Part shown: piece after piece, positions 1 to 17,669 of the stretch
How the letters are laid out: every line of letters begins with the position of its first letter
How positions within the stretch are numbered: position 1 is the stretch's first letter
From: a virus
DNA length: 64,000 nt
Reading direction: 5' to 3' (one strand)
Virus record (IMG/VR): IMGVR_UViG_3300028025_002789
Location: 1-64,000 of that record
Notes under the pieces: generated by a model
Databases searched by the model: none
What the model was told of the DNA's origin: nothing
What the model saw: only the letters and a program-made list of their open reading frames with translations
Program-made: the position numbers and the translations under genes

Positions 1-715
1 CTTTACCGTAGACACATAGGCCACATGATACGCAGGCGGAACCAGCGGAAGAAATAAGCGGAATACTCTTCATATTCTCAGGACACTTAGCCCCAGGCTT
101 ACCCGTTAATTCTTTCATAGTACTTTCAGTAACAGCGAATGTCTTGCCTAGATAAGCCAGGCGGACACCGTCATTAAGTTTTAAATCATGAGCAATAGTT
201 TTATTCTCATCATCCGTTGAATAATAAAGTGATAGATTAGAAATATCTTTAAGGATTAATGCTGCAGACTTAACTCGTGTATATACCCAAAATTGAATAT
301 CTGAATTCTGATCAATCACAGTCTTCCACGCATATGCGTACGTGTCATTAAAGAAATCTCCGTCCCAGTGGATACGGAATAATAACTTAGCATTGCGCTT
401 CTCGCAATCCTTGCGAAAGTCTGCAATCATAGATTCAATTAAGTTAACCATGGTAGGACCGTCGGCGTCCTTTAATAAATTCCAATTATGCATGAGCACA
501 TTGCGAACGCCCTTATATACTTTTTCTAACTTACCCGCATAACATACGCTTTCGCAAATACTAGTAGCGCCAGGGCATGAGAATGCTTTACCTGCAGGCA
601 GGCCAAAGGTATTAGCAATTGTAGGAGTTTTACCGTTAGGGGAAACGGCATTCGTTACTTTACGGTCCATTGAGCGCTTTAACATGGGCCCAATTATAGC
701 AGGAGACACTGACAT
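1..715 (-). CDS. GP88-like protein, C-terminus cut by window edge
   Basis: Open leftward frame translated by hand from the ATG at 713-715 to the window edge, so the C-terminus is missing (238 codons visible). It contains the segment LPAGKAFSCPGATSICESVC near residue 39 and a late cysteine cluster CVSCGLC near residue 230. The Cys-rich 'SCPGATxxC..CYAGK' core resembles the Gene product 88 family common in actinobacteriophages, whose function is unknown; metal or iron-sulfur binding is an inference from the cysteines. The start overlaps the upstream stop by one base (TAATG), so it is translationally coupled to the 47-codon gene before it. Confidence 0.7.
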   Translation of the reverse strand, partial: MSVSPAIIGPMLKRSMDRKVTNAVSPNGKTPTIANTFGLPAGKAFSCPGATSICESVCYAGKLEKVYKGVRNVLMHNWNLLKDADGPTMVNLIESMIADFRKDCEKRNAKLLFRIHWDGDFFNDTYAYAWKTVIDQNSDIQFWVYTRVKSAALILKDISNLSLYYSTDDENKTIAHDLKLNDGVRLAYLGKTFAVTESTMKELTGKPGAKCPENMKSIPLISSAGSACVSCGLCVYGK

Positions 716-858
716 TATAAGTCCCCCATTTCTGCATCCGCCATGCGTGACATCATGCGCCACATATCTTGCTTAATAGCATCGTCGGAACCATAGAGAG
801 ATCCATCGCAATCATTCATTTCATGACCGCAGCAAGGAAAATCTTCGCAAGTATTCAT
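715..858 (-). CDS. small Cys-rich hypothetical protein (47 aa)
   Basis: A longer upstream start (at 915) is open, but the ATG at 856-858 is chosen because a ribosome-binding site AACGAAAGG (866-874) sits 7 nt before it, as for most early genes here. The protein has Cys4, Cys9, Cys10, His12 and Cys17 (motif DFPCCGHEMNDC), suggesting a metal-binding knuckle, followed by an acidic, Met-rich helix. Function unknown. It leads a two-gene unit with the GP88-like gene, behind the promoter-like element at 887-908. Confidence 0.7.
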   Translation of the reverse strand: MNTCEDFPCCGHEMNDCDGSLYGSDDAIKQDMWRMMSRMADAEMGDL

Positions 859-886
859 TAGTTGACCTTTCGTTGGAGAGGTTGAA

Positions 887-908
887 AGTATAACAGATCT
901 AACTGACA
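887..908 (-). promoter_or_regulatory. early promoter-like element A
   Basis: Read leftward: TGTCAG (903-908), 10 nt, TATACT (887-892), followed by the RBS of the 47-aa gene. It has the same TGTCxG-10 nt-TATAAT geometry as seven other sites in this region. Confidence 0.6.
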
Positions 909-916
909 TTTCCAAT

Positions 917-1000
917 ACGACACGCCGATTTCAGGGCATTATTTATATGTGTCTTAAATCACAAAATGCCCCCTCACATCTGTGGGCGCATTTGTCGATA
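917..1000 (-). repeat. intergenic terminator/promoter module R1
   Basis: Contains the shared words TGTGGGCGC (981-989) and GACACGCC (919-926). The hairpin at about 968-990 (GCCCCCTCACA pairing with TGTGGGCGC, one mismatch) is followed leftward by ATTTTGT, and rightward by ATTTGT, so it can terminate both ways. It is the first of four related modules (others near 3360, 4520 and 5035). Confidence 0.6.
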
Positions 1001-1010
1001 AAAGGGAAAT

Positions 1011-1031
1011 GGGGCGGGAAGAACCCGCCCC
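1011..1031 (-). terminator. strong GC hairpin, terminator of the 1038-1295 gene
   Basis: Perfect 8-bp arms GGGGCGGG (1011-1018) and CCCGCCCC (1024-1031) around a 5-nt loop, followed leftward by ATTTCCCTTTT. It lies just past the stop codon of the leftward gene and is the first hairpin of module R1. Confidence 0.75.
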
Positions 1032-1037
1032 AAGCCT

Positions 1038-1295
1038 TTAATTTATACTGATACTTAGTTTATTAGGTATAAGAGATTTAACAAACTGTATAGTTTCCAT
1101 TGGTAGGAAAATTGCGGTTGTCTTTTTCTTTTTTAGATTATCAAACACAAACGCTTTTACATTTCCGTCAAACCTTTTTAGATTTGAGAACACAATCTCT
1201 CTTAGGTATTCTTGGTCAACACCTTGTTCAGAGTAGATAGTTAAATCATTTGACTTTACTTCGTCATAGATTTCAATACGAAATCTTTCTGCCAT
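1038..1295 (-). CDS. hypothetical early protein (85 aa)
   Basis: Leftward single-gene unit between a terminator/promoter pair at 1324-1360 and the hairpin at 1011-1031. RBS AAAGGAAAG precedes the ATG. Begins MAERFRIEIYDEV, alternating hydrophobic residues of beta type, then the basic stretch LKKKKTTAIF. No recognised family. The position among host-takeover-sized genes suggests an early role, which is inference only. Confidence 0.65.
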   Translation of the reverse strand: MAERFRIEIYDEVKSNDLTIYSEQGVDQEYLREIVFSNLKRFDGNVKAFVFDNLKKKKTTAIFLPMETIQFVKSLIPNKLSISIN

Positions 1296-1323
1296 TGTCT
1301 TTCCTTTGTTAGTAGGGATAGGA

Positions 1324-1329
1324 AGTATA
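1324..1329 (-). promoter_or_regulatory. -10 box of the 1038-1295 gene
   Basis: Read leftward: TATACT, preceded 18 nt upstream by TAGACA, which lies inside the neighbouring terminator hairpin. This unit lacks the TGTCGG word found at the other early promoters, so it may be regulated differently. Confidence 0.45.
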
Positions 1330-1333
1330 ACAT

Positions 1334-1360
1334 AGGGGGCTAGATTTTGTCTAGCCCCCT
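1334..1360 (-). terminator. rho-independent terminator of the 1367-1549 gene
   Basis: Perfect 10-bp arms AGGGGGCTAG (1334-1343) and CTAGCCCCCT (1351-1360) with a 7-nt loop, directly after the leftward stop at 1367. The terminator and the next promoter are interleaved in about 40 bp. Confidence 0.8.
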
Positions 1361-1366
1361 ATAAGA

Positions 1367-1549
1367 TTATGCGCCGATTTTTACCATAGCCCAACGCAAA
1401 CCATTTTCTGTATTAAGCCCCAGCTTTGTTAATGTAGGGCGAATAGAAATGATCTCGCTGATTGTGCCAGTAATGCCAGACTTGCCTGTGGTGAATACAT
1501 CGCCTTTACGATAGAAGCGACCCTTAGCGGTATCTAGAATTGGTGACAT
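1367..1549 (-). CDS. small SGITG-motif protein (60 aa)
   Basis: Leftward gene with a CGAAAGG-type RBS. The core GKSGITGTI...NGLRWAMVK is shared with the 51-aa protein at 2165-2320 (TTSGITGVI...NGKERWTSAPAK), so the two are diverged paralogues. The short alternating hydrophobic pattern suggests a small beta-barrel (SH3 or KOW-like). This fold is inference and the function is unknown. Confidence 0.65.
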   Translation of the reverse strand: MSPILDTAKGRFYRKGDVFTTGKSGITGTISEIISIRPTLTKLGLNTENGLRWAMVKIGA

Positions 1550-1616
1550 TTTATTTCCTTTCGTTAGTTGGTGTGTGTGAGCAGTTTTTAGACTTGCTCA
1601 GGTCGTTGCTTGTTAT

Positions 1617-2039
1617 TTATAGATAACGAGCAATAGCGTTGTATGTGGAAGCATTTACTGTTTCCTCGTCGGTCATTTTAAGAATACGAATAGCGTTTTC
1701 CATCTCATCTTTCATCTCACGATAAGTGTGCTGATGGATAGTTTCGTAGTCCTTTTCAGGTTCTTTTGGAAAATCTTTCTCATCAACTGTTAGGTCAAAA
1801 TCAACATTGAGAGTTTTGTTCCAAGAACGATAGTTGGTGCGTAGGTTTTCAGCCTTTGAGAATTGACCAATAGCCCACTTCCCAATTTCTTTTTTCCACG
1901 CTTCCATCTTTTTGTTAAACTTTGCCTCGTTTTCATCTTGCTTTGCGTAGTCAGCATTTAGTTGTGCTAACTTTGCTTCTAAGGCTTTAATAACCTTATC
2001 AGTAGCAATTTTTACCTGTATTGCTTTACCTCTAGCCAT
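1617..2039 (-). CDS. coiled-coil hypothetical protein (140 aa)
   Basis: Leftward gene with RBS CGAAAGGGA 9 nt before the ATG and promoter element B behind it. The first 60 residues are charged and heptad-like (KALEAKLAQLNADYAKQDEN), predicting a coiled coil. The rest is acidic and polar. No family recognised; small coiled-coil early proteins often bind host factors, but that is inference. Confidence 0.7.
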   Translation of the reverse strand: MARGKAIQVKIATDKVIKALEAKLAQLNADYAKQDENEAKFNKKMEAWKKEIGKWAIGQFSKAENLRTNYRSWNKTLNVDFDLTVDEKDFPKEPEKDYETIHQHTYREMKDEMENAIRILKMTDEETVNASTYNAIARYL

Positions 2040-2069
2040 TTGTATTTCCCTTTCGTTGGTTGTTGGAGT

Positions 2070-2091
2070 ATTGTATCAGTTGCCACCGACA
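2070..2091 (-). promoter_or_regulatory. early promoter-like element B
   Basis: Read leftward: TGTCGGTGG (2083-2091), then TACAAT (2070-2075) with ACT after it. There are exactly 10 nt between TGTCGG and the -10 box. Drives the 1617-2039 gene. Confidence 0.65.
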
Positions 2092-2164
2092 CAAATAGTG
2101 TGAGAGTTCTTACTTACGACATTGGGCGAGATACTCTCTAAACTGCCCCTGTTTCGTTATTCAG

Positions 2165-2320
2165 TTATTTAGCAGGTGCGCTTGTCCAGCGTTCCTTACC
2201 ATTTACATCAAGCAGGATACGATTTGTTCCGCTAGGGTGGTTATCAACGGCTTTAATAACTCCTGTGATACCGCTTGTTGTAGTTGTGTAGGTTTGACCT
2301 ACCTCTAGTGTTGTGTTCAT
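2165..2320 (-). CDS. small SGITG-motif protein (51 aa), paralogue of 1367-1549
   Basis: Found by reading the strand directly. ATG at 2318-2320, RBS CGAAAGGA about 6 nt upstream, stop TAA at 2165-2167. Sequence begins MNTTLEVGQTYTTTT and contains SGITGVIKAV and NGKERW, matching the 60-aa protein at 1367-1549. Function unknown. Its own promoter element C lies just upstream. Confidence 0.7.
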   Translation of the reverse strand: MNTTLEVGQTYTTTTSGITGVIKAVDNHPSGTNRILLDVNGKERWTSAPAK

Positions 2321-2349
2321 TGTGTTTCCTTTCGTTTGGTTATAGCAGT

Positions 2350-2371
2350 ATTATAGTGGATACCACCGACA
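2350..2371 (-). promoter_or_regulatory. early promoter-like element C
   Basis: Read leftward: TGTCGGTGG, 7 nt, TATAATACT (-10 at 2350-2355). This is the closest match to the consensus of the set. Confidence 0.7.
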
Positions 2372-2373
2372 TT

Positions 2374-2393
2374 TCCCCTCATTTCGTAGGGGA
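2374..2393 (-). terminator. short hairpin ending the 2411-3301 unit
   Basis: Arms TCCCCT and AGGGGA around an 8-nt loop, followed leftward by AAAT and then immediately by promoter element C. Same terminator-then-promoter arrangement as the R modules, but with another hairpin sequence. Confidence 0.5.
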
Positions 2394-2410
2394 GTGTCGT
2401 GTGAGATACA

Positions 2411-2551
2411 TCACAAGTATTCGGTTAGGTCGCCGTCCATAATCTCAGATACTGATACGCCTTCGAGTTCGGCGATAGCATCCCATAGTTCAGCTTCGGT
2501 ATAGTTTCCATCAGGATACCAATCAGATAAGATAGAATAAAGATTATTCAT
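2411..2551 (-). CDS. small acidic hypothetical protein (46 aa)
   Basis: ATG at 2549-2551, stop TGA at 2411-2413. Overlaps the upstream gene by 8 nt (ATGAATAA), so it is probably translationally coupled. Highly acidic (EAELWDAIAELEGVSVSEIM). No family recognised. Last gene of a four-gene leftward unit (3301 to 2411). Confidence 0.65.
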   Translation of the reverse strand: MNNLYSILSDWYPDGNYTEAELWDAIAELEGVSVSEIMDGDLTEYL

Positions 2552-2819
2552 AGTAGTCCTCCTGTGGTAGCCACGCATCTAGGTGGTGCTGCTCAATAAT
2601 TGCGGAAGCAGGTGCAAACTTACTTCCTCGATAAGATACGCCTTCGGGCATTTCGATCATTTTGTTATAGTCCTCATCATAGTATGCGTCAATAGCATCT
2701 ATGCAAGGTTGCACCATAGATAGCGGAACGGGTGGGTAGTGATTACCCTGCAAGTGATAGCCTATTGCCATCTCTAAATCTAATTCCTCAGATAAACTTA
2801 CTGCTGTGTTGTATCCCAT
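2544..2819 (-). CDS. conserved phage hypothetical protein (91 aa)
   Basis: Leftward gene starting at the ATG adjacent to the upstream stop. Contains GYHLQGNHYPPVPLSMV and AIIEQHHLDAWL, a pattern I recall from small actinophage proteins of unknown function. Acidic, no membrane segment. Confidence 0.7.
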   Translation of the reverse strand: MGYNTAVSLSEELDLEMAIGYHLQGNHYPPVPLSMVQPCIDAIDAYYDEDYNKMIEMPEGVSYRGSKFAPASAIIEQHHLDAWLPQEDYYE

Positions 2820-3095
2820 TTATTCGTTCTCCTCTAAGATAGTTTCTGATAGGTTGTCCATTTCGGCTATTGTATCGCATAGCACCGACATTTCTGATTC
2901 TGTTAGTAATACCTTAGTAATTCCATCGGCTACCTTGCTAGATAGGGCGGCAGAATACATAAATAGATACCTGGCGAATACATCATCAGATAATTCATTT
3001 CTGCGTGTGTGTAATTCACCCGCAAGCCCCATTATCTCATCGTCAAACACGCTATCTTTAGTAACCGATAATAACTCTAATGCAGTAGATAACAT
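2820..3095 (-). CDS. hypothetical helical protein (91 aa)
   Basis: Leftward gene whose start overlaps the upstream stop by one base. Mostly helical, with a hydrophobic middle (ARYLFMYSAALSSKVADGI) that is too short and interrupted to call a membrane span with confidence. Function unknown. Confidence 0.65.
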   Translation of the reverse strand: MLSTALELLSVTKDSVFDDEIMGLAGELHTRRNELSDDVFARYLFMYSAALSSKVADGITKVLLTESEMSVLCDTIAEMDNLSETILEENE

Positions 3096-3301
3096 TATTT
3101 AGCCACCTTTAACTTTGCCCAAGAGGTACCTTCATTTAATTCGTTAATAGTTGGTTGGATAATAGGCACTAGATGGTCTTTCAATAAGCCTTCTAGAATA
3201 GCAGTTATTTCATCTTTCCCCAAGGCAAGTAATCGAATTGCGCTAGGGTGTGTTTCGTCAAACTCAGTTACGAATTTGAGATAGTGTTCTACTTTTTTCA
3301 T
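3095..3301 (-). CDS. hypothetical early protein (68 aa)
   Basis: The frame is open to 3340, but the ATG at 3299-3301 is preferred because the RBS AACGAAAGG (3308-3316) lies 6 nt before it and the upstream extension would run through the promoter. Begins MKKVEHYLKFVTEFDETHPS. First gene of the unit driven by promoter element D. No family recognised. Confidence 0.7.
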   Translation of the reverse strand: MKKVEHYLKFVTEFDETHPSAIRLLALGKDEITAILEGLLKDHLVPIIQPTINELNEGTSWAKLKVAK

Positions 3302-3330
3302 TTGTAGCCTTTCGTTGTTGGGATGAGAGT

Positions 3331-3352
3331 ATTTTAGCATAGGCTACCGACA
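3331..3352 (-). promoter_or_regulatory. early promoter-like element D
   Basis: Read leftward: TGTCGG (3347-3352), 10 nt, TAAAAT (3331-3336), then ACT. Drives the 2411-3301 unit. Confidence 0.65.
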
Positions 3353-3359
3353 TTTTTTG

Positions 3360-3464
3360 CAACACGCCTCAAAATCCAGGGTGTTTTATATCACACTCTT
3401 AACGACACGCCCGACCCCGCACCTCTGTGGGCGCAGCTGGCGATCTTGTCAAATCGCCACGCCG
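3360..3464 (-). repeat. intergenic double-hairpin module R2
   Basis: Two hairpins in leftward order: arms GGCGAT/ATCGCC (3439-3458) with a loop containing TTGACAA, then GCGCCCACAG facing GTGCGGGG (3415-3434). GGCGTGTCG-like words flank both. It sits between the stop of the 3474 gene and promoter D. Confidence 0.6.
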
Positions 3465-3473
3465 TTTATTTAA

Positions 3474-3662
3474 TTACACACGCCCAAAAATTGTTGTGTA
3501 ATTACTCGCCTCGTGAAATCTCACGACATCAAATCGCTCATTATCTTTAGCAAACATTTCAGCAAAATCATTTACCATTTTAGAAAATAAAGCAGGGTGA
3601 GTTTTATTGCTCGCATACTTTAAAATTTCTGCGGTTGCGATGTAATCTTTTCTAGTCATCAT
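3474..3662 (-). CDS. conserved phage hypothetical protein (62 aa)
   Basis: Starts ATGATG, overlapping the upstream stop. MTRKDYIATAEILKYA...NDFAEMFAKDNERFDVVRFHEAS resembles a widespread small phage protein pattern (KDYxxxAxxL...F...NPRFDxxRFxxA) of unknown function. Entirely helical. Confidence 0.75.
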   Translation of the reverse strand: MMTRKDYIATAEILKYASNKTHPALFSKMVNDFAEMFAKDNERFDVVRFHEASNYTTIFGRV

Positions 3663-3862
3663 CGTTTTACTACCTTTCCATTTCGGTGAAAAATCTTAGT
3701 GTAACATTTACCGCTAGGGGTAAATAAGTTAATTGTTGAGTATTCATCAGCGAAGCCCCAGTCAATAAACTTAGCAAACTCTTCGTGTGCGTTTAATTCG
3801 TCTGAGTATTCTTTACTCCAATGAATTGCGTTTTCATCATTAGCAACAGTTATCTTATACAT
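3659..3862 (-). CDS. hypothetical protein (67 aa)
   Basis: The frame is open further upstream, but the ATG at 3860-3862 overlaps the preceding stop (TAATG), which fits the coupling seen throughout this cluster. Begins MYKITVANDENAIHWSKEY. Short alpha/beta protein with a basic tail (KIFHRNGKVVKR). No family recognised. Confidence 0.7.
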   Translation of the reverse strand: MYKITVANDENAIHWSKEYSDELNAHEEFAKFIDWGFADEYSTINLFTPSGKCYTKIFHRNGKVVKR

Positions 3863-3993
3863 TAGATACCCCACATTTCTAGAGCGCAATCGCAACTCTC
3901 TACATCATAATTGTTTTCATCGCCAAAGAAAATAAATCCAGCACCGCCACACTCATCGCAAGCGACCCCGATTATTTCTATTAAGTTTCCCAT
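3862..3993 (-). CDS. small zinc-ribbon-like protein (43 aa)
   Basis: Read directly. ATG 3991-3993 behind RBS CGAAAGG, stop 3862-3864. Contains CDECGGAGFIFFGDENNYDV followed by CDC, i.e. two CxxC/CxC pairs about 26 residues apart, typical of small actinophage zinc-binding proteins. Probably folds around one metal; DNA or protein binding is inference. First gene of the unit behind promoter E. Confidence 0.75.
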   Translation of the reverse strand: MGNLIEIIGVACDECGGAGFIFFGDENNYDVESCDCALEMWGI

Positions 3994-4025
3994 TTTAGTT
4001 TTCCTTTCGTGTTTTGTTATTAGTA

Positions 4026-4047
4026 ATTATAGCCTAAGCCACCGACA
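4026..4047 (-). promoter_or_regulatory. early promoter-like element E
   Basis: Read leftward: TGTCGGTGG, 7 nt, TATAAT (4026-4031), then TACT. Drives the 3474-3993 unit. Confidence 0.7.
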
Positions 4048-4067
4048 ATTTCGGGGAACGACACGCC

Positions 4068-4190
4068 CTAAAGCGCACCTTCCTGAAATAAGCCGATTTC
4101 TAAATCCAGTAATTCTTGCGGGTTGGCTTCGGATAAATCTACCCAGCCAGCACCTTGCTCATCTAATCTAAAAATTTCAATGTATCCCAT
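4068..4190 (-). CDS. small acidic hypothetical protein (40 aa)
   Basis: Read directly: ATG 4188-4190, stop TAG 4068-4070. Starts 2 nt after the upstream stop (GAATAATAATG). Begins MGYIEIFRLDEQGAGWVDLS and is strongly acidic. No family recognised. Confidence 0.6.
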   Translation of the reverse strand: MGYIEIFRLDEQGAGWVDLSEANPQELLDLEIGLFQEGAL

Positions 4191-4192
4191 TA

Positions 4193-4384
4193 TTATTCAC
4201 CAACCTTTACTGCTATTGTTCGGTAAGTGTATTTACCAGTATTAGATTTAATTTGTACTAAATAACTTTCGGCGTTATCGTACCAAACAGAAGATTTTTC
4301 TGCGGAGATAATTTCACCACGCAAAGTTTTAGAGTTGTAAGTTTTACCAATTAGTAAATCTTGTATTGTGTATAAGTTAGCCAT
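4193..4384 (-). CDS. hypothetical early protein (63 aa)
   Basis: RBS CGAAAGG precedes the ATG, with promoter F behind it. Alternating hydrophobic pattern (SYLVQIKSNTGKYTYRTIAV) suggests a small beta fold, broadly like the SGITG proteins nearby. Function unknown. Confidence 0.65.
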   Translation of the reverse strand: MANLYTIQDLLIGKTYNSKTLRGEIISAEKSSVWYDNAESYLVQIKSNTGKYTYRTIAVKVGE

Positions 4385-4419
4385 TGTTAGCCACTTCCTT
4401 TCGTTTTCGTTATGCCGTA

Positions 4420-4441
4420 ATTATAGCGGATAGCACCGACA
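4420..4441 (-). promoter_or_regulatory. early promoter-like element F
   Basis: Read leftward: TGTCGG (4436-4441), 10 nt, TATAAT (4420-4425), then TAC. Drives the 4068-4384 unit. Confidence 0.7.
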
Positions 4442-4519
4442 ATTTTCTACCTACTAGCCAGTAATTCCAAATAATGAGACGCTCAAGCCATGTGATAAAA
4501 CTCACAAGATCTCGGGCGT

Positions 4520-4618
4520 GTCGCAGGATTTTCAGGGCTTTTCTTAAATCGGACATAACAGACAAATTGCCCCCGCAGTTCTGTGGGCGCTTTCAGCAGT
4601 TTGTCAAGCTGACACGCC
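4520..4618 (-). repeat. intergenic double-hairpin module R3
   Basis: Leftward order: hairpin with CAGC/GCTG arms and a TTGACAA-containing loop (4594-4611), then GCGCCCACAG facing GCGGGGGC (4569-4590) followed by AATTTGT. It shares the word TTATGTCCGATTTAAG with R4. Confidence 0.65.
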
Positions 4619-4619
4619 G

Positions 4620-4847
4620 TTACCCTTCATCATATTCTAAAGAAAGCGGGAAGTCATCAGACATTCCCTCATTCATAGCATCTTGATAATCTAAAAGACC
4701 TTGCTCATACATAATTGGATCACAATTAAAAAGAATCTCAGATGCGGTAAAAGTTGAGTAACCAATCTTTACATCTGGATAACATTCGTCAAGCATTGCA
4801 TCATATGCTTCTTTTATTTCAAGAGCGATTTCAAAATCTGTTTTCAT
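4620..4847 (-). CDS. acidic hypothetical protein (75 aa)
   Basis: Start overlaps the upstream stop (TAATG). Very acidic (pI clearly low), with SEILFNCDPIMYEQGLLDYQ in the middle, a motif seen in small phage proteins of unknown role. DNA mimicry is conceivable given the acidity but is not shown. Confidence 0.7.
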   Translation of the reverse strand: MKTDFEIALEIKEAYDAMLDECYPDVKIGYSTFTASEILFNCDPIMYEQGLLDYQDAMNEGMSDDFPLSLEYDEG

Positions 4848-4957
4848 TATTTATTTCCTTTCAATGACTCTGCATAAGCAGGGTCGGAAACTGAGTCCGC
4901 ACCAAACTCCTCGTAGATTTCTAGATAGATTTCATCATAGTATTCGTTATAGTCCAT
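4847..4957 (-). CDS. acidic micro-protein (36 aa)
   Basis: Read directly: ATG 4955-4957, stop TAA 4847-4849 overlapping the next ATG. AAAGG lies about 12 nt upstream, longer than usual. Begins MDYNEYYDEIYLEIYEEFG, an extremely acidic and tyrosine-rich stretch. First gene of the unit behind promoter G. Confidence 0.65.
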   Translation of the reverse strand: MDYNEYYDEIYLEIYEEFGADSVSDPAYAESLKGNK

Positions 4958-4993
4958 AAGTTGAACCAACCTTTCTTTATCTTGATACTAAGT

Positions 4994-5015
4994 ATCCTAT
5001 CATAGACCACTGACA
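4994..5015 (-). promoter_or_regulatory. early promoter-like element G
   Basis: Read leftward: TGTCAGTGG, 7 nt, TAGGAT (4994-4999), then ACT. Weaker -10 but identical spacing. Drives the 4620-4957 unit. Confidence 0.55.
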
Positions 5016-5034
5016 TTTTGACTCATTTTTCGGG

Positions 5035-5160
5035 TGTGTCGGGAAAGTATTTTTGTGAATTGCGCCACATTTCTAGGGTGTTTCTTAAATCGGACATAAG
5101 GTACAAAATGCCCCCACAAAAGCTGTGGGCGCTATCGCCTATTGTCAAGGCGACACGCCG
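5035..5160 (-). repeat. intergenic double-hairpin module R4
   Basis: Leftward order: arms CGCCT/AGGCG with loop TGACAAT (5135-5153), then GCGCCCACAG facing TGTGGGGGC (5110-5132) followed by ATTTTGT. It sits between the stop at 5163 and promoter G. Confidence 0.7.
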
Positions 5161-5162
5161 TG

Positions 5163-5303
5163 CTATCTACCGAAAGTATAGTGAGTTAGCACACACTCCC
5201 TGCCCTCTATGGTTTGCTTACAGTCACCATAGTGCGGGGTAGAGAACAGAGAGAATACTAGTATGCCTACTAGTAACGATACATAACCTATCAGGGCTTT
5301 CAT
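5163..5303 (-). CDS. small membrane protein (46 aa)
   Basis: Read directly: ATG 5301-5303 overlapping the upstream stop, stop TAG 5163-5165. One hydrophobic segment at residues 3-20 (ALIGYVSLLVGILVFSLF), then a short polar tail with two cysteines, probably outside the cell. Could be a membrane-targeted host-takeover or superinfection protein; this is inference. Confidence 0.65.
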   Translation of the reverse strand: MKALIGYVSLLVGILVFSLFSTPHYGDCKQTIEGRECVLTHYTFGR

Positions 5304-5458
5304 TACTTATTCTTCTTTCTCTTATAGATCTTATAGCCTACTACTAGTAAGGCGGTGGCAATGATGGTGTGCCAAGGTAGATAGATAGCCCCTAAGAAAC
5401 TATCTAACTCTATACCATAGTCACTAGTTATATATAACTCTAGTCCGTCTGTAATCAT
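5303..5458 (-). CDS. small membrane protein (51 aa)
   Basis: Read directly: ATG 5456-5458, stop TAA 5303-5305, both coupled to neighbours by TAATG overlaps. Acidic N-terminus, one membrane span (about residues 23-42, AIYLPWHTIIATALLVVGY), then a basic tail KIYKRKKNK placing the C-terminus inside. Paired with the membrane protein that follows it. Confidence 0.65.
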   Translation of the reverse strand: MITDGLELYITSDYGIELDSFLGAIYLPWHTIIATALLVVGYKIYKRKKNK

Positions 5459-5643
5459 TACTTATCTCCAAACATGTTAAAGACCTCATCTATTTGGTCA
5501 TCTGTTAAGTGGTCAATCTCGATAGCCTTAGAGAAACCGAATACATCTTCTTCATCTGTTATCTCTTGCTCTGCTAATTCTTCATCTAAGTAGGTGTATG
5601 CGTCTGCTACATCTGCTTGAATAGTATCCCATTTAGTCATCAT
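5458..5643 (-). CDS. acidic hypothetical protein (61 aa)
   Basis: Starts ATGATG, overlapping the previous stop. Strongly acidic (EELAEQEITDEEDV...DHLTDDQIDEVF). Function unknown. Third of four coupled genes read from 5810 to 5163. Confidence 0.65.
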   Translation of the reverse strand: MMTKWDTIQADVADAYTYLDEELAEQEITDEEDVFGFSKAIEIDHLTDDQIDEVFNMFGDK

Positions 5644-5810
5644 TACTTAGTCACCTTTATCTCTTGAATGTTAGCGGAAAACTTTTGAGCCTTACCTATT
5701 GCGCTATCGTTTAACTCTGCTACTACTTTATCAACATCTTTAATGTTAGTAGCGATGTTACCAATAGACAATAGGCGAGAGCCTTGCCATAGTGCGTATG
5801 TTATAGTCAT
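5643..5810 (-). CDS. hypothetical protein (55 aa)
   Basis: Read directly: ATG 5808-5810, stop TAA 5643-5645. Preceded by GAAAGAAGAA as a weak RBS and promoter element H. Begins MTITYALWQGSRLLSIGNIA. No family recognised. Confidence 0.65.
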   Translation of the reverse strand: MTITYALWQGSRLLSIGNIATNIKDVDKVVAELNDSAIGKAQKFSANIQEIKVTK

Positions 5811-5845
5811 TTACTGTTCTTCTTTCTCTAGTTTGTTATAGTGGA

Positions 5846-5867
5846 ATAGTAGCGGATAGGGCAGACA
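5846..5867 (-). promoter_or_regulatory. early promoter-like element H
   Basis: Read leftward: TGTCTG (5862-5867), 10 nt, TACTAT (5846-5851). Weaker match, same spacing. Drives the 5163-5810 unit. Confidence 0.5.
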
Positions 5868-5889
5868 ATTACAAGCGACACGCTGTCGC

Positions 5890-6042
5890 TTATTCTGTGA
5901 CCTTAGTCACAGTAGGCAAGGAGATTAGATAGCGTAGGACACGCTTTCTATCTGCTACGGATAGCCCGTAGGTAGAGGTAACGCCACCGTTACGGTAGTC
6001 GTTCTCTATTTTCTCTAATAGAGTTTCTGTTAGTGTAGTCAT
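5890..6042 (-). CDS. hypothetical protein (50 aa)
   Basis: Read directly: ATG 6040-6042 with RBS AAAGGTGG 8 nt upstream, stop TAA 5890-5892. Sequence MTTLTETLLEKIENDYRNGG then VADRKRVLRYLISLP is helical and amphipathic. First leftward gene from the divergent control region. Confidence 0.65.
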   Translation of the reverse strand: MTTLTETLLEKIENDYRNGGVTSTYGLSVADRKRVLRYLISLPTVTKVTE

Positions 6043-6092
6043 TTTATGACCACCTTTCTTTTTTTAAGATTAACTATTTGTTAATTGCTTAT

Positions 6093-6120
6093 AGTATAAG
6101 CCTAGCAGGGGGGACTGACA
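6093..6120 (-). promoter_or_regulatory. leftward promoter I (variant)
   Basis: Read leftward: TGTCAG (6115-6120), then TATACT (6093-6098) 16 nt later, unlike the 10-nt spacing elsewhere. At 10 nt spacing only TAGGCT is present, so assignment of the -10 is uncertain. Confidence 0.45.
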
Positions 6121-6287
6121 TTTTCAAGTCTCAAATCGGACATGTCGGACATTTTGTAAGTTAATTTTATAAATTAGCGTGAGATAGGTCACATTTATGG
6201 TCGCTCTATCCCATTTGTCCGTTTTTATAGATACGTGTATCGTACAAATAAAACCTATATTAACATTTTGGTAAATCTAAAAAATAG
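6121..6287. promoter_or_regulatory. divergent control region
   Basis: Gene-free stretch between the first leftward and first rightward genes. It holds a tandem TCGGACA pair (6137-6150) and the near-palindrome GATACGTGTATC (about 6229-6240), and is AT-rich toward the right. Candidate operators for the early switch; no protein gene seen. Confidence 0.5.
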
Positions 6288-6316
6288 TTGACTGAAATAT
6301 TTTATATTAGTATAAT
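6288..6316 (+). promoter_or_regulatory. rightward promoter, leaderless type
   Basis: TTGACT (6288-6293), 17 nt, TATAAT (6311-6316). The next ATG is only 6 nt after the -10 box, so the mRNA would begin at or next to the start codon. Confidence 0.75.
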
Positions 6317-16262: not shown

Positions 16263-17669
16263 ATGGCAAGAAAATTTTTAGTAAGCGTTGATCTCAACAA
16301 GAATGAGTTACTCAATGCCAGAATTCAGAACTTAGGTTCTGCCCCATCAAGTCCAGTCACTGGTCAAGTTTACTATGACACATCGAACAACACGATGTAC
16401 TACTACAATGGACTATCCTCACCAGATGGCCCATGGATGCCAATGTCTGGCTCCACAGAGGTTATTCAAGATGTAATTGGTTCATCCGTATTAGCTGGAA
16501 CAGCATTAACATCAACATATAACGACACAGCAGGAACAACAACATTAAGTTTAAATAATACAGCGGTAACAGCTGGAGCATATGGCTCACAAACAAAAAT
16601 TCCTACATTCACAGTAGACGCACAAGGTCGTTTAACTGCAGCTGGTGAAGTAGACGTAGCAACAACACTTACAATTTCAGATGATACCTCCGCAACAATT
16701 GGTATTAACCTTCTAACAGAAACTCTTGAAATAAATGGTGGAGAAGGAATTGATGTATCCGTAACTGGAGACACAGTAACAATTTCAGGAGAAGACGCAT
16801 CCTATACAAACAAGGGTGTTGCATCATTTAGCGCAACAGATTTCGTAGTAACATCTGGAGCTGTAGCACTTAATACTGAATCAATTCAGGACATGATTGG
16901 TGGGATGGTAACATCTCCAAATACTGAAAATGGAATTACAGTAACTTATGATGATTTAAATGGTAAGGTAAACTTTGATGTAAATGATCCAACTATAACA
17001 CTTTCAGGTGACGTAGCAGGATCTGCAACAATGACAGACCTTGGCAACGTAGAAATCACAACAACAATTCAGCCTAACTCTGTAGCCTTGGGAACAGATA
17101 CAACAGGTAACTATGTAGCAACAATTTCTGGAACAACAAACGAAATTGAAGTTTCTGGCTCAGGTTCAGAAAACTCTGCAGTTACAATTGGTCTTCCAAA
17201 TGATGTTCAAATTACTGGAAACCTACAGGTTGGCGGTAACTTAAACGTAGTAGGAACAATTAACTCTGTTAATACTACTCAGGTAAACATTGTTGATAAT
17301 AAGATCAACCTTAATACAGACTTTACTGGAACCCCAACAACAGATGCAGGAATCCGTGTTGAGCGTGGAGATTCCCCAGACGTTGAAATTCTTTGGAATG
17401 AAACAAATGATAATTGGACATTAACAAATAATGGTACAAATTATCACGCAATTACAAGAAAGTTTGTAGAAACTCTATCTACTTCTGCAACATCTTATGT
17501 AGTAACACATAATTTAGGAACATCAGATGTAATGGTACAGGTATCTGAAACAGCATCACCTTACGCAAAAGTAGAAACTGATATTGAACTTACTTCAGCG
17601 TCTACTGTAACAGTAAAGTTTGCTTCAGCACCAGCATCAGGAGCATATAAAGTAGTAGTAATAGGATAA
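16263..17669 (+). CDS. tail fibre protein (468 aa)
   Basis: RBS AAGGAG upstream. N-terminus PVTGQVYYDTSNNTMYYYNG is the usual attachment signature of cyanophage-like and actinophage fibres. The middle consists of Thr/Ser/Gly-rich beta repeats (PTFTVDAQGRLTAAG), and the end repeats the VVTHNLGTSDVMVQV fold of the preceding protein. Likely a trimeric beta-helical shaft for host recognition. Confidence 0.8.
   Translation: MARKFLVSVDLNKNELLNARIQNLGSAPSSPVTGQVYYDTSNNTMYYYNGLSSPDGPWMPMSGSTEVIQDVIGSSVLAGTALTSTYNDTAGTTTLSLNNTAVTAGAYGSQTKIPTFTVDAQGRLTAAGEVDVATTLTISDDTSATIGINLLTETLEINGGEGIDVSVTGDTVTISGEDASYTNKGVASFSATDFVVTSGAVALNTESIQDMIGGMVTSPNTENGITVTYDDLNGKVNFDVNDPTITLSGDVAGSATMTDLGNVEITTTIQPNSVALGTDTTGNYVATISGTTNEIEVSGSGSENSAVTIGLPNDVQITGNLQVGGNLNVVGTINSVNTTQVNIVDNKINLNTDFTGTPTTDAGIRVERGDSPDVEILWNETNDNWTLTNNGTNYHAITRKFVETLSTSATSYVVTHNLGTSDVMVQVSETASPYAKVETDIELTSASTVTVKFASAPASGAYKVVVIG

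Follow-up and report, generated by a model that had tools for sequence, protein, structure and literature searches.

Introduction

The means by which large lytic actinophages seize transcription are poorly known, and WhiB, one of the commonest actinophage regulators, has no well-defined function in the phage life cycle. In the middle promoters of phage T4, the MotA box (WWWTGCTTtA) lies 12 ± 1 bp from the -10 element, and about half of these promoters have a TGN motif (PMC2988021). The regulator WhiA recognizes the site GACAC in either orientation and at no fixed distance (PMC3781837), and cluster M mycobacteriophages possess the conserved intergenic repeats CR1-CR4 (PMC7953290). Here we analyze the first 64,000 bases (the window) of the IMG/VR virus record IMGVR_UViG_3300028025_002789, a fragment of 97,728 bases that lacks part of its leftward arm. 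In this arm, and in that of many relatives, about 15 near-identical promoters with a weak -35 element carry a box, AAATGTCRGTSS, at one fixed distance from the -10 element. We propose that they constitute a clade-specific phage promoter class in which a dedicated factor on the box probably contacts the sigma-A RNA polymerase, standing in for the weak -35.

Like the T4 middle promoters, they combine a -10 of the sigma-A/sigma-70 type, a frequent TGN, a poor -35 and a short, asymmetric, phage-specific upstream box shared by a whole set of promoters. They differ in the box itself (AAATGTCRGT), which lies around 9 bp from the -10, about 3 bp closer than in T4 and with no slack, as well as in their putative actinobacterial host and the absence of MotA or AsiA homologues from six genomes. 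With the WhiA/WhiB promoters of Streptomyces they share a short GACA-type site, a WhiB protein and sigma-A promoters, whereas the site found here, YGACAWT on the complementary strand, has a fixed orientation and distance and does not match GACAC. The likeness to CR1-CR4 of cluster M is one of description only, and lies in the many copies of a short repeat between the genes of one arm, with stem-loops nearby (PMC7953290).

Box promoters of the leftward arm

A search for TGTC[AGT]G-N10-TANNNT in positions 1-6300 of the window gave 11 matches on the minus strand and none on the plus strand, compared with an average of 0.07 and never more than 2 in 500 dinucleotide-preserving shuffles of the same region. 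When the spacing was scanned from 0 to 20 nucleotides (nt), the only peak was N10, with 11 sites, every other spacing giving 0 to 3. In the complete 97,728-base record, an exact search with TGTCNG-N10-TANNNT returned 14 matches, 11 of them leftward within 693-6120 and the other 3 scattered, as expected by chance. A search of the whole window with two mismatches allowed gave a weak enrichment (48 versus 32), the signal residing in the exact form.

The preliminary description had reported eight leftward sites of the form TGTCxG-N10-TATAAT-like and an invariant 10-nt spacing; all eight coordinates do hold the pattern on the minus strand and the spacing stands, but the list was incomplete, having overlooked the sites at 693 and 2869. 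A site at 6093 that it had considered a variant falls into the usual N10 register once its limits are set at 6099-6120, which brings the leftward sites to 11.

The promoter at 6099..6120 (-), TGTCAG-N10-TAGGCT, is the first of the leftward arm, and the relatives' sites of the same sequence type have TAGGAT, TATGAT or TATAAT, all at N10. Further along the minus strand, the site at 5846..5867 (TGTCTG-N10-TACTAT) is weak and followed by a start codon at 5810, and that at 4994..5015 (TGTCAG-N10-TAGGAT) by one at 4957. Perfect TATAAT elements, which the preliminary description had correctly assigned to the copies at 2350, 4026 and 4420, occur with TGTCGG at 4420..4441, which drives the open reading frame (ORF) 4384-4193 and also has a weak -35 (TAGAAA, 18 nt), at 4026..4047, with a start codon at 3993, and at 2350..2371, which drives ORF 2320-2165. 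The promoter at 3331..3352 (TGTCGG-N10-TAAAAT) precedes a start codon at 3301, and the one at 2869..2890 (TGTCGG-N10-TACAAT, TGTCGGTGCTATGCGATACAAT) lies within the 3' part of ORF 3095-2820, before ORF 2819-2544. The same box and -10 pair at 2070..2091 drives ORF 2039-1617, while the site at 887..908 (TGTCAG-N10-TATACT) is followed by a start codon at 858. The site at 693..714 (TGTCAG at 709-714) has a perfect TATAAT as well, at 693-698, and drives the gene of GP88 (PF17338), whose reading frame at 2..715 (-) is cut by the end of the record.

Conservation of the box and of its spacing

The GP88 protein served as query to gather relatives, giving 80 homologous loci from IMG/VR contigs, which were oriented along the arm. 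On the coding strand of the arm the N10 pattern occurs 1052 times, compared with 11 on the other strand, and spacings of N9 and N11 have just 7 matches each. Once identical cores were removed, 678 different ones remained, in which the spacer itself varies. Their consensus consists of AAAWTGTCRGTSS, five variable bases, TGN and TATAAT, with a start codon about 30 nt further on. In the logo of these cores a weak T/G/A preference at -35 to -32 is followed by AAWTGTCRGTSS at -31 to -20, variable bases, TG at -15/-14, TATAAT at -12 to -7 and a G-poor, A-rich start region; an extended -10 (TG at -15/-14 or -14/-13) is present in 73% of the cores. The TGTCRG core of the preliminary description is thus retained and its box corrected to TGTCRGTSS, A being commoner than G at -24 among the relatives. 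Positions -22 to -20 are non-random, with TGG in 252, ACC in 112, TCC in 65 and TGC in 56 of the 678 cores.

Because this logo was pre-filtered by the pattern, the analysis was repeated with one half fixed at a time. With TGNTATAAT alone fixed, AAATGTCRG reappears, and with AATGTC alone fixed the -10 reappears; the same test on the opposite strand did not recover the box. The box occurs 603 times on the arm strand and 5 times on the opposite one, and 538 of the 603 (89%) have a -10 at N10, so that it is not a free-standing element. Nothing is conserved 16-18 nt from the box, and we therefore rejected the possibility that it serves as the -35 of a more distant downstream -10; the earlier remark that it is no normally spaced -35 hexamer is borne out.

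The whole-genome motif search that the preliminary description had suggested, carried out in the phage and its relatives, found the motif nearly absent from the other arm, which holds structural and replication genes. Of the matches in 20 long contigs, 290 share one orientation and 18 have the opposite one, and a reversed control pattern gave 33. In one divergent relative (contig G020, 16883-17348) two box promoters adjoining the main set point the opposite way, which indicates that the box is not tied to one orientation of the arm.

Promoter function

At 962 of the 1052 sites (91%), a ribosome-binding site, a start codon and a frame of at least 40 codons follow within 150 nt, compared with 36% of random positions. 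Over the 1052 sites the start codon lies at a median distance of 30 nt from the -10, that is, around 24 nt past the presumed transcription start. The earlier proposal of a single coordinated set of promoters is supported. The genes of the leftward arm are here assumed to be early ones on account of arm position and synteny.

GP88 departs from this arrangement. In 49 of the 80 relatives its ATG follows the -10 at exactly 7 nt, the others having a leader of 27-31 nt, and at site 693 the in-frame ATG at 685 is likewise 7 nt past the -10. Since this distance, recurring in 49 relatives, places the start site at or beside the A of the ATG, the GP88 messenger from 693 is probably leaderless and, judging from the sequence, probably translated from the ATG at 685 and not from that at 715.

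The -35 region and ordinary sigma-A promoters

A match of at least 5/6 to the -35 consensus is present in 16% of the box promoters, 5% of sites on the other strand and 27% of the box-less promoters of the arm. As a class, the box promoters lack the TTGACA-like -35 at 16-18 bp that defines ordinary sigma-A promoters, with at most 0.2 bit of information at -35 to -33. Box strength and -35 strength are not anticorrelated, so that strict replacement of the -35 by the box was rejected, and in view of the residual -35 similarity we prefer to say that the box largely takes over from the -35.

Ordinary promoters exist beside them. A box-less leftward promoter at 1324..1353 (-) has a near-canonical -35 (TAGACA-N18-TATACT), and the rightward arm has a canonical sigma-A promoter at 6288..6316 (+) (TTGACT-N17-TATAAT) together with further sites resembling it. 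Outside the window, the whiB operon (83,873-84,184) has TTGACA-17/18-TATAAT, matching at 12/12 positions in four phages and 11/12 in two. Given that the same phages carry such canonical promoters, one would expect the host polymerase to read normal sigma-A promoters and the box class to be something else.

In the record itself the WhiB operon, at 83,614-84,503, stands behind a perfect TTGACA-N18-TATAAT and is conserved in six phages. The gene following whiB, which has no assigned function, is conserved in all six relatives.

Distribution of the box

A strict form of the box promoter, which captures 13% of true sites, was scanned against 84,980 bacterial and archaeal species genomes. It gave 58 stretches, compared with about 119 expected by chance, in unrelated phyla, and the box was accordingly rejected as a host promoter type. 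Two of the 58 are contigs of the phage clade misplaced in metagenome-assembled genomes (MAGs), one of Methylophilaceae and one of Saccharibacteria. The strict scan of viral contigs gave at least 120 matches and, among the matches listed, 117 of 120 share several proteins with the clade, whereas the strict box is absent from the named phages that we looked at. By these scans the box promoters are a clade-specific phage class, almost absent from bacterial genomes. No published description of the motif was found in a literature search of partial coverage, most subscription journals lying outside it. A sharply defined promoter class with a rigidly placed box thus occurs in at least 100 uncultured phage contigs, and the box gives a signature for recognizing the clade in metagenomes.

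Relationship to Streptomyces phages

The genome is syntenic with that of the Streptomyces phage Paradiddles (Stanwilliamsviridae), with dozens of homologues in the same order along the genome. Shared proteins include glycosyltransferase, ribonucleotide reductase (66% identity), portal, capsid, helicase (63%), primase, DnaE (56%), RecA, RuvC, terminase (56%) and WhiB, which is 48% identical and in the syntenic place. By shared core genes and their order, the clade is an uncultured relative of the Streptomyces Stanwilliamsviridae, which are classed as large lytic phages. Identification of the host through MAGs failed, since it turned up just the two misplaced contigs, in bins of other bacteria. 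An actinobacterial host is suggested by WhiB and by the relatives, and an origin in lake water by the MAGs in which the two contigs were found.

The Boydwoodruffvirinae (Paradiddles, Wofford, Jay2Jay, EGole, Coruscant, MulchMansion and LukeCage) have the same syntenic leftward arm of small genes (GP88, DUF932). The arm promoters of the Streptomyces Stanwilliamsviridae resemble the box promoters in having TGTC(C) at -28 to -24, in the same register, and an extended -10, but they differ in a real TTG -35, a -10 of TAGACT and the weakness of the TGTC element. In seven Streptomyces phages of that family, 10 of 42 arm promoters, some of which are orthologous and hence not independent, have TGTC at -28, compared with counts of 0-2 at 16 other offsets. 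The shared register, in promoters with a real -35, suggests, at the level of sequence, that an element which was accessory in the common ancestor has come to dominate in the present clade. Within the partial literature coverage, no published description of this weak element was found. Its presence in cultivated Streptomyces phages means that the box factor can be sought in the laboratory.

Mechanism and alternative explanations

Each box promoter has a sigma-A -10, usually extended (TGN), a weak relic of a -35 and the directional element at -31 to -20. A dedicated DNA-binding factor that the phage makes or recruits would bind the box, touch the sigma-A RNA polymerase and substitute for the weak -35; the arm of small genes would thereby be switched on as a unit, with the other arm and whiB using ordinary TTGACA/TATAAT promoters. 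The arrangement would work like the MotA box and -10 of T4 middle promoters, its closest known parallel, with a different protein. The rigid spacing across a varied spacer, the single orientation, the inseparability from the -10 and the restriction to one clade favor a factor that touches the polymerase, and fit a repressor or a passive repeat less well. The preliminary description had left open an activator site, a repressor site or contact by an alternative sigma factor. Of these the activator-like reading is favored and the repressor is less likely, since 538 of 603 boxes are fixed to the -10, the opposite strand has hardly any, and the search of six genomes for a tyrosine integrase was negative. 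Nor is there support for an alternative sigma, because the six genomes lack sigma-70 region 2 and the -10 is an ordinary sigma-A TATAAT.

Several observations nevertheless weigh against a dedicated factor. Neither MotA (PF09158) nor AsiA (PF09010) was found in the six genomes, both being detected in the T4 positive control, and sigma-70 region 2 (PF04542), positive in 10 of 14 control genomes, was not found in them either. The box, at -28 to -20, lies closer to the start site than the MotA box of T4, and as binder of the box there are two candidates only, WhiB and a 48-amino acid (aa) helix-turn-helix (HTH) protein. The sites come from related phages and are not independent samples. Finally, box promoters match the -35 above background (16% versus 5%), and this residual match, together with the lack of anticorrelation between box and -35 strength, means that the box may add to the -35 instead of replacing it.

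An account that dispenses with any extra factor, which we hold to be rather unlikely, is that the host sigma-A polymerase itself reads the box as a spacer element, making it, with the extended -10, a source of strong constitutive early promoters. A spacer element of this kind, the Z-element, has been proposed for the beta' zipper. The extended -10 in 73% of cores and the common perfect TATAAT agree with such direct reading, as do the Streptomyces relatives, which pair TGTCC in the same register with a full -35 as an accessory element would. Host promoters should then show the box, however, and its strict form is at chance level in the 84,980 genomes; nine conserved positions at so inflexible a distance would also exceed the known spacer effects. 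It seems highly doubtful that the box belongs to a phage repressor, as an operator that overlaps the promoters and serves immunity or shut-off. Many identical sites over the promoters of one arm do recall the stoperator systems of cluster A mycobacteriophages, in which many identical sites lie over promoters. A steric repressor, though, requires neither rigid spacing nor a single direction nor a constant -10 partner, and the free or flexibly placed sites to be expected of it are scarce, as the 538 of 603 boxes at N10 indicate. The six genomes have no detectable tyrosine integrase (PF00589; serine integrases and partition systems were not searched), and the Streptomyces relatives are presumably lytic.

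The two candidates could also act together, in an appropriation of the WhiA/WhiB type with phage WhiB on region 4 of sigma-A and host WhiA or the 48-aa HTH protein on the box, although we regard this as improbable. WhiB (PF02467) is present in all six genomes tested, in the position where Paradiddles has its 48% identical counterpart; its near-perfect canonical promoter could allow it to be made first, and WhiB-like (Wbl) proteins bind sigma-A region 4 (PMC6282962, PMC10245118). The complement of the box, YGACAWT, resembles the WhiA site but lacks the final C of GACAC, and the known Wbl contacts with DNA are made upstream of the -35 and not within -28 to -20 (PMC10245118). Many actinophages carry WhiB (PMC8612146), yet the strict box is missing from the named phages examined. 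The HTH protein, conserved in the six relatives, is also found in Paradiddles, under the annotation 'DNA binding protein'; its model has three helices, with a predicted local distance difference test score (pLDDT) of 88.7, and a fold search gave only generic HTH matches, sigma region 4 among them and none significant. We give correspondingly little credence to the more specific scheme of an independent actinophage sigma appropriation, in which early-made WhiB would remodel sigma-A region 4 and the small HTH protein would read TGTCRG, turning on the arm.

Neighboring features

The stand-alone 48-aa HTH protein is encoded at 73,249-73,395 of the record, directly after ruvC, and occurs in all six relatives and in Streptomyces phages. 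The leftward arm has at its far end a gene for a tiny protein of 48-54 aa, in part like the Lsr2 DNA-bridging family (phrog_6269), at 96,826-96,972 (-) of the record and at 16407-16571 of locus L012. This position indicates that the right end of the record meets the arm, with several kb missing between.

The box repeats were also considered as a terminator or RNA element, and this was rejected: the confident Rfam matches are tRNAs only, and the hairpins of the region are separate features. These hairpins belong to four intergenic cassettes 3' of leftward genes, at 915-1035, 3398-3470, 4510-4622 and 5030-5162 (-), with the organization GGCGTGTC...[GCGCCCACAG-N-TGTGGGGGC]...GACACGCC. In all four, terminator-like hairpins lie inside larger inverted repeats, with fold z-scores of -1.8 to -4.0.

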